A DNA stretch of 47,882 nt from Thermoplasmata archaeon (GTDB lineage: Archaea > Thermoplasmatota > Thermoplasmata > Lutacidiplasmatales > UBA184): positions 1 to 47,882 of the forward strand of contig JAJYWS010000058.1 of assembly GCA_021791335.1 (NCBI GenBank). The letters run 5' to 3'. Under the pieces are notes generated by a model. The model was not told the DNA's origin. It worked only from the letters and a program-made list of their open reading frames with translations, and did not search any database. Positions 889 to 24,955 of the stretch are shown here, piece by piece. Within the stretch, counting starts at the first letter, position 1. Every line of letters begins with the position of its first letter. The translations under genes and the position numbers were made by a program.

Positions 889-961
889 AGCCGCTGGAGG
901 GATTTGAACCCCCGACCTGCTGATTACAAATCAGCTGCTCTACCGACTGAGCTACGGCGGC
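889..961 (-). tRNA. tRNA-Thr (anticodon UGU)
   Basis: This is a complete 73-nt cloverleaf with no intron. On the minus strand it has a 7-nt acceptor strand, a GCTC/GAGC D-stem, a GCTGA/TCAGC anticodon stem with loop TTTGTAA (anticodon TGT, reading ACA), a 5-nt variable loop, a T-arm with TTCAAAT, and discriminator U73. CCA is not encoded. The only blemish is a C6-A67 mismatch in the acceptor stem. A weak A/T-rich element (plus strand 985-996) sits about 24-35 nt upstream. Confidence 0.95.
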
Positions 962-9214: not shown

Positions 9215-9330
9215 GCGGGGATGGCCCAGCCCGGCAAGGCGCTGGATTGCTAATCCAGTGGTGGTTTCACCTCGGGGGTTCAAAGGGTCGTCGGGATCCG
9301 CCCGTCGACCGGAAGCTCCCCCTCCCCGCG
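9215..9330 (+). tRNA. tRNA-Ser (anticodon GCU) with 32-nt T-loop intron
   Basis: Exons are 9215-9284 and 9317-9330, the intron 9285-9316. The acceptor GCGGGGA pairs perfectly with TCCCCGC (9323-9329), and discriminator G is 9330. Anticodon GCT is at 9249-9251 in loop TTGCTAA, and the long variable arm is typical of Ser. The T-stem GGGGG (9274-9278) pairs with CCCCC (9318-9322). The T-loop TTCAAA|T is split between positions 59 and 60. The intron folds as GGTCG/CGACC plus CGGG/CCCG. Its 3' GGAA (9311-9314) opposes loop TTCA (9279-9282), leaving 3-nt bulges AA|G and GC|T at the two junctions, as in an archaeal bulge-helix-bulge. CCA is not encoded. Confidence 0.93.
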
Positions 9331-24835: not shown

Positions 24836-24955
24836 GCTGAGGTAGCCTAGCTCGGCCAAGGCGCCAGATTCGAGATCTGGTGGTGCGTATGCATCGCGGG
24901 AGTTCAAAGGGCGCGCAGGACCCGCTGCGGTCGCCGGAGAGTCTCCCCCTCAGCG
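24836..24955 (+). tRNA. tRNA-Ser (anticodon CGA) with 33-nt T-loop intron
   Basis: Exons are 24836-24908 and 24942-24955, the intron 24909-24941. The acceptor GCTGAGG pairs perfectly with CCTCAGC (24948-24954), discriminator G is 24955. The anticodon stem CCAGA/TCTGG encloses loop TTCGAGA with anticodon CGA at 24871-24873. The long variable arm fits Ser. The T-stem GGGAG (24898-24902) pairs with CTCCC (24943-24947). The T-loop TTCAAA|T is split at 59/60. The intron forms GGCG/CGCC plus CGCAG/CTGCG. Its 3' GGAG (24936-24939) opposes loop TTCA (24903-24906), giving 3-nt bulges AA|G and AG|T. CCA is not encoded. Confidence 0.93.

Follow-up and report, generated by a model that had tools for sequence, protein, structure and literature searches.

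Introduction

Ordinary introns at position 59/60, within the T-loop, are known from tRNA genes of the Thermoproteales. Members of this order such as Pyrobaculum and Thermofilum carry many BHB introns per genome outside position 37/38, and the permuted tRNAs of Thermofilum pendens and Cyanidioschyzon merolae have their junction at 59/60 (PMC3218864). Reviews assign systems of the Thermoproteales type a heterotetrameric EndA of broad specificity. Two Asgard lineages of soil archaea, the Atabeyarchaeia and Freyarchaeia, likewise have many non-canonical tRNA introns; these interrupt 92-95% of their tRNA genes, with several introns in over half (PMC11291895). A published rule associates homodimeric or homotetrameric euryarchaeal EndA with single introns at 37/38, and heterotetrameric or epsilon2 enzymes with scattered introns. 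A 2014 review states that Euryarchaeota with alpha4 or alpha2 enzymes have fewer than 10% interrupted tRNA genes, each with one intron at the canonical position (PMC4090602).

Here we describe introns at 59/60 in tRNA genes of a member of the Thermoplasmata, starting from two serine tRNA genes in a stretch of 47,882 nt, hereafter the window. They share the motif and the enzyme type of the canonical euryarchaeal 37/38 introns, which by eye the same genome also has in Met, Tyr and Leu(UAA), but differ from them in position and number. In contrast to the permuted tRNAs, the two gene halves keep their usual order around a short intron, and unlike the Thermoproteales the genome encodes a two-repeat EndA that appears to lack the Crenarchaea-specific loop. 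The introns are thus of a known kind, in a lineage where the reviews consulted place introns only at the usual position. Across 217 archaeal genomes, tRNAscan-SE 2.0 identified 673 non-canonical introns (PMC8450103), and its supplementary species table may include some of the introns described here. No earlier paper on T-loop introns in Thermoplasmatota was found by title or abstract opening, a search whose scope left subscription journals mostly outside.

Two serine tRNA genes of the window are interrupted in the T-loop

The features of both serine tRNA genes are collected in Table 1. In tRNA-Ser(CGA), TTCAAA at 24903-24908 and CTCCC from 24943 delimit the insert; its boundaries and length agree exactly with those proposed in a first-pass annotation made from the sequence alone. 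The hairpin that the annotation had described is likewise present: a single G (24909) precedes GGCG and CGCAG, which pair with CTGCG and CGCC around a 2-nt bulge. The predicted core, UUCA against GGAG, has the proposed 3-nt bulge on each side and three standard pairs (U-G, U-A and C-G), but its fourth position is a non-standard A57·G, so that the 3-4-3 geometry held only in part. The counterpart in tRNA-Ser(GCT) occupies the same place in the T-loop and, as anticipated, has the same build; both precursors combine a 5-bp T-stem, UUC paired with the end of the intron, 3-nt bulges and a GC-rich hairpin. The third tRNA gene of the window, for threonine, is free of introns, as had been noted.

Table 1. 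Positions of the tRNA features in the window (strand as read in the deposited contig)
Feature	Position	Strand	Remarks
tRNA-Ser(CGA) 5' exon (positions 1-59)	24836..24908	+	acceptor GCUGAGG/CCUCAGC, anticodon CGA, T-stem GGGAG; intron model R1 matches 24836-24955
tRNA-Ser(CGA) intron, 33 nt, at 59/60	24909..24941	+	predicted BHB fold; covariation in 28 orthologs; in 44/47 orthologs
tRNA-Ser(CGA) BHB 5' side: UUCA core and bulge AA/G	24903..24909	+	
tRNA-Ser(CGA) BHB 3' side: GGAG core and bulge AG/U	24936..24942	+	
tRNA-Ser(CGA) intron hairpin	24910..24935	+	both-side changes in 9/10 pairs across orthologs
tRNA-Ser(CGA) 3' exon (positions 60-73)	24942..24955	+	
tRNA-Ser(GCT) 5' exon	9215..9284	+	acceptor GCGGGGA/UCCCCGC, by eye
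tRNA-Ser(GCT) intron, 32 nt, at 59/60	9285..9316	+	core UUCA/GGAA, bulges AA/G and GC/U
tRNA-Ser(GCT) 3' exon	9317..9330	+	
tRNA-Thr(UGU), comparison gene without intron	889..961	-	

Fold prediction gave the spliced 87-nt Ser(CGA) sequence a cloverleaf with the long variable arm of serine tRNAs. The single-strand minimum free energy structure of the unspliced precursor retained the acceptor, D, anticodon, variable and T stems and the intron hairpin; in it the partner of UUC is the second GAG of GGAGAG, which differs from the BHB register. Within the window, ARAGORN and Rfam (default thresholds and gathering cut-off) reported tRNA-Thr only and missed both serine tRNAs. Searches at these default settings should therefore be treated with caution, as they overlook such genes, and the tRNA counts of such genomes can run low.

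Orthologs of the Ser(CGA) intron keep the fold while the sequence drifts

The Ser(CGA) precursor was searched in 61 genomes of the genus, including the one studied here. We read 47 genes in full, in sets of 30 and 17; two others ran off their contigs and one was missed by the script, and the reading set aside partial and second matches and the remaining 11 genomes. The intron was present in 44 of the 47 genes and absent from three; it measured 33 nt in 40 genes and 30 or 32 nt in the other four. Among the first 30 genes the exons differed from the window at 0-2 of 87 letters, whereas the 33-nt introns differed at up to 17. A relative (DAHXNZ010000019.1, Thermoplasmata archaeon), in which a neighbouring protein is 89% identical, has a Ser(CGA) intron that differs by three letters.

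Covariation was assessed in 28 T-arms of equal length, that of the window included. Nine of the ten hairpin pairs showed changes on both sides, and 39 cells were changed on both sides compared to 16.9±3.0 after shuffling. The covariation measure was 0.233 in register and at most 0.108 in slid registers, a control that takes relatedness into account, which the shuffles do not. RNAalifold, run unaided, recovered 11 of the 19 pairs, six of them changed on both sides, and left out the UUC core. The first-pass annotation had taken compensating stems in the two serine isoacceptors as strong support for a real, structure-defined 59/60 class. Such a class is supported by the covariation, by the intron-less alleles and by the genes for splicing enzymes. 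Two isoacceptors were, however, a thin basis for compensating stems, a point that the set of 28 orthologs carries. In the 44 intron-bearing genes the partner of A57 was G in 41 and A in three, and a single gene (L234, core GGGC) lacked full pairing of UUC.

The three intron-less genes (L229, L230 and L232) read GGGAGUUCAAAUCUCCC, which is identical to the predicted spliced T-arm. The same three genes also differ in the variable arm. Gene replacement, and not plain loss of the intron, may therefore lie behind these alleles.

The orthologs also bear on whether the serine genes are degenerate or decoy copies broken by a small mobile element. The inserts are indeed short and change fast in sequence, as such an explanation would expect, yet the exons are near-invariant over 30 genes. 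In addition, the same 14 genes are interrupted in two genomes, one of which has only insert-bearing copies of its His, Asn and Asp genes among those found (see below). We regard this explanation as scarcely credible. Self-splicing group I introns, which are far larger than these inserts, were dropped as a candidate on the grounds of size.

More than a third of the tRNA genes found in the genome carry a 59/60 insert

The genome comprises 1.41 Mb in 63 contigs and is 93% complete. An Rfam tRNA search gave 34 matches at E up to 10 and was too weak when used alone, as it missed His, Lys(UUU) and Leu(UAG); these were added by R1, an intron model built from four sequences, for a total of 37 tRNA genes. 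R1 was kept to four sequences because larger alignments misplaced the T-arm (with eight sequences) or Arg(UCG) (with five). Fourteen of the 37 genes, serving 11 amino acids, are interrupted at 59/60: Asn, Arg(UCU), Arg(UCG), Ala(GGC), Glu(CUC), Gly(UCC), Gln(CUG), Asp, His, Lys(UUU), Leu(UAG), Ser(GGA), Ser(GCU) and Ser(CGA). All 14 have 3-nt bulges and three UUC pairs. Across the introns read here, splicing in silico restores the T-loop UUCRAAU, or once UUCGAAC. Exon order is normal in these genes, with no 3' half lying upstream of a 5' half as in permuted genes.

An intron class specific to serine tRNAs and recognised via their long variable arm, as the first-pass annotation proposed, is most unlikely given this distribution. 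Three of the four serine isoacceptors found in the genome do carry the intron. However, 11 of the 14 introns, with the same kind of motif, lie in Asn, Arg (two), Ala, Glu, Gly, Gln, Asp, His, Lys and Leu tRNAs, and ten of these 11 (all but Leu) have short variable loops, so that the same build occurs where the arm is short. Conversely, the long-armed tRNA-Ser(UGA) is intact and intron-free, with a plain T-loop that reads GGGAGUUCAAAUCUCCC. A survey of the other serine and leucine tRNAs had been recommended: Ser(GGA) and Leu(UAG) carry a 59/60 intron, and Ser(UGA) does not.

Alternatively, the mature tRNA might retain the insert and have an enlarged T-arm. In favour of this, the precursor is predicted to fold with its T-stem intact. 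However, U54, U55 and C56 are required for the tRNA elbow and would be buried, the core motif is conserved, and three members of the genus as well as the genome's own Ser(UGA) have a plain T-loop. Retention therefore appears very unlikely.

Rfam returned 42 matches in a second genome of the genus (G044; 100% complete, 20 contigs), and Leu(UAG) raised the total to 43. Introns at 59/60 were present in 13 of the 42 and in Leu(UAG), and thus in the same 14 genes as in the first genome. The sole gene found in G044 for each of His, Asn and Asp bears an intron (one match, L163, is perhaps Trp), so these genes can function only if spliced. Orthologous introns of the two genomes were more alike than non-orthologous ones in both sequence and length (0/5000 permutations each). 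This likeness suggests that the introns were inherited, and those of both genomes probably descend from introns already present in the common ancestor.

Introns were also found in the D-loop. Those in iMet and Arg(GCG) of the first genome have clean BHBs; Lys(UUU) and Leu(UAG) probably carry D-loop introns as well, although these resolved less cleanly there. The iMet intron (L029, and L169 in G044) has the core CAGG/CCUG with bulges AA/A and AA/A and is the same in both genomes; that of Arg(GCG) (L027, and L156 in G044), also found in both, has GUAG/CUAU or CUAC with bulges CU/A and AG/U.

The core motif is kept over 104 introns

Three UUC pairs and 3-nt bulges were present in all 11 introns examined first. 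The motif was then assessed in 104 distinct 59/60 introns from the two genomes and from other genus, order and class relatives. UUC was fully paired in the BHB register in 103 of the 104, whereas 2000 shuffles averaged 11.3 and never exceeded 26, although most of the loci were found by intron-built models that possibly favour the motif. For Ser(CGA), the first 30 genes came from an ordinary similarity search with the precursor, and in the larger set 43 of 44 genes pair UUC. Sliding the register by one base left 61 and 14 of the 104 introns with UUC paired. The Asn intron of G044 pairs only two letters of UUC.

The fourth core position was less regular. Position 57 and its partner read AG in 61 introns, GC in 23, AU in 15, GA in three and AA in two. 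Standard pairs thus number 38, and the other 66 are purine mismatches. The 4-bp helix is therefore often imperfect. Even so, R57 and its partner covary: standard pairs at this position exceeded the permuted mean of 20.7 and were never as numerous in 5000 permutations. The partner of A57 was G in 59 of 65 genus introns and U in 11 of 13 introns from order and class relatives. The 3' core half of the intron is mostly RGRR or YGRR.

Splicing enzymes and a proposed route of maturation

The genome encodes an EndA of 354 aa with two PF01974 repeats (alpha'2-like). Residues 78-336 align to A. fulgidus EndA (E 2e-23), and the second repeat to M. jannaschii EndA. One two-repeat ORF was found by PF01974 in each of 20 chosen genomes, the first repeat being weak in two (G030 and G039); the profile found no separate beta subunit in these 20 genomes, and a highly diverged subunit would escape it. 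The tyrosine, histidine and lysine of the catalytic triad are present in this protein, and inspection by eye shows them in the remaining 19 genomes as well. The protein aligns to wild-type A. fulgidus EndA (1r0v) without an insertion at the point at which 3p1y carries some ten additional residues. We take 3p1y, partly on the strength of the alignment, to be an A. fulgidus EndA construct bearing the Crenarchaea-specific loop; on that identification the protein would lack this loop. RtcB gave one match in the genome and one in G044.

Cutting by EndA and joining by RtcB are established functions. We consider it very probable that the inserts are real BHB introns at T-loop position 59/60, which EndA excises and whose flanking exons RtcB joins. 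The basis of this interpretation is sequence, fold, covariation, intron-less alleles, distribution and enzyme genes, and from these we infer the cutting, the joining, the order of events and the choice of site. In the precursor the T-stem (49-53/61-65) would already have formed, and U54, U55 and C56, with R57, would face the end of the intron, so that a 3-nt bulge remains on either side. The two-repeat EndA, which presumably acts as a homodimer, would cut between bases 2 and 3 of each bulge (between A59 and N, and between N and U60), and RtcB would then ligate 59 to 60 to yield the normal T-loop UUCRAAU. The intron hairpin would need only to be helical, so that its sequence could drift fast while fold and length were kept. 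Nearly all T-loops have the UUCRAA exon half in common, so that a single type of intron end suits many tRNAs, and this shared half would account for the use of the site in many isotypes. While U54-C56 are paired with the intron, the elbow contacts and the T-loop modifications should await splicing.

Published work on related enzymes bears on the specificity that such cutting would need. The homodimeric EndA of Ferroplasma, also of the Thermoplasmata, is described as cutting a mini-BHB that lacks a tRNA body, and the same text credits homodimeric EndA with the ability to cut BHL-like motifs (PMC8707768). Cleavage of a mini-BHB lends plausibility to cutting in the T-loop. Elsewhere alpha'2 enzymes are classed as narrow, yet they can cut BHL at 37/38 in a full pre-tRNA (PMC6379350). 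The two sources disagree on how narrow alpha'2 EndA is.

Against the published rule, this lineage combines a two-repeat EndA with 14 T-loop introns and further introns in the D-loop. Either what the rule captures is motif shape rather than position, or the specificity of this EndA is less restricted than its type would imply. The frequent mismatch at the fourth core pair points to the latter as a possibility.

Distribution of the 59/60 introns in the genus, order, class and phylum

A second intron model, R2, was built from nine model-aligned sequences. R2 is biased to tRNAs with short variable loops and to its own training introns, some of its matches are intact tRNAs of 73 nt, and an absent match does not equal an absent intron. 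With these properties of the model in mind, the best locus was a 59/60 insert in all 25 genus members examined (24 others and the genome studied here). In 11 order and class relatives, 28 long or above-normal-length matches were read and those of 73-75 nt were left aside; 26 of the 28 were 59/60 inserts, in 10 of the 11 genomes. The other two, both from class relatives (L132 and L133), have intact T-loops, and in one genome (G032) the matches listed were of 73-75 nt only. When the reading was repeated without the 9-nt minimum insert length, an insert was the best solution in 25/25 genus, 12/12 order and 14/16 class loci.

The reading script was controlled on 48 intact-tRNA loci in which an insert was forced. 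No insert was called in 42; two calls were true intron genes in the neighbourhood, and four were false, with scores of 37.3-39.4. Low-scoring false inserts were also seen in G044, at L163 (36.9), the possible Trp gene, and at L171 (32.8), by eye an intact Leu(CAG).

In a draw of 145 genomes across the phylum, the one studied here included, 38 had a match at E≤1e-13. Five matched through a 73-nt hit only, leaving 33 with longer matches. Reading of 29 loci gave a 59/60 insert in 28, and for the remaining one (L219) the script returned a neighbouring intact tRNA. In family f8 a 20-24-nt intron at 59/60 of Arg(UCU) was present in ten genomes and identical in three. The occurrence of an Arg(UCU) intron both there and in the genus studied here suggests that the site may be old.

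A more far-reaching proposal is that 59/60 is an ancestral, phylum-wide site, reusable despite an EndA of narrow type through the shared UUCRAA half, and that the intron serves as a checkpoint that orders maturation. In that reading the intron hides U54-C56, elbow formation and T-loop modification could follow only after splicing, and a checkpoint would result. We put this forward tentatively and think it rather unlikely as a whole.

The many naturally occurring introns at this single site, together with intron-less relatives, offer material on the spread and loss of tRNA introns. By eye, introns of families f21 and f44 (L198, L199, L201, L202, L215 and L218) share words resembling TTGCA and TGCAT across different tRNAs and genomes, and look as if they had spread by copying. 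Among the order and class relatives, the eight 59/60 inserts read in one genome (G026) are only 13-14 nt long (L101, L109, L119 and L124-L128), with almost no hairpin, and with the core UUCA/UGAA or, once, UUCG/AGAA.
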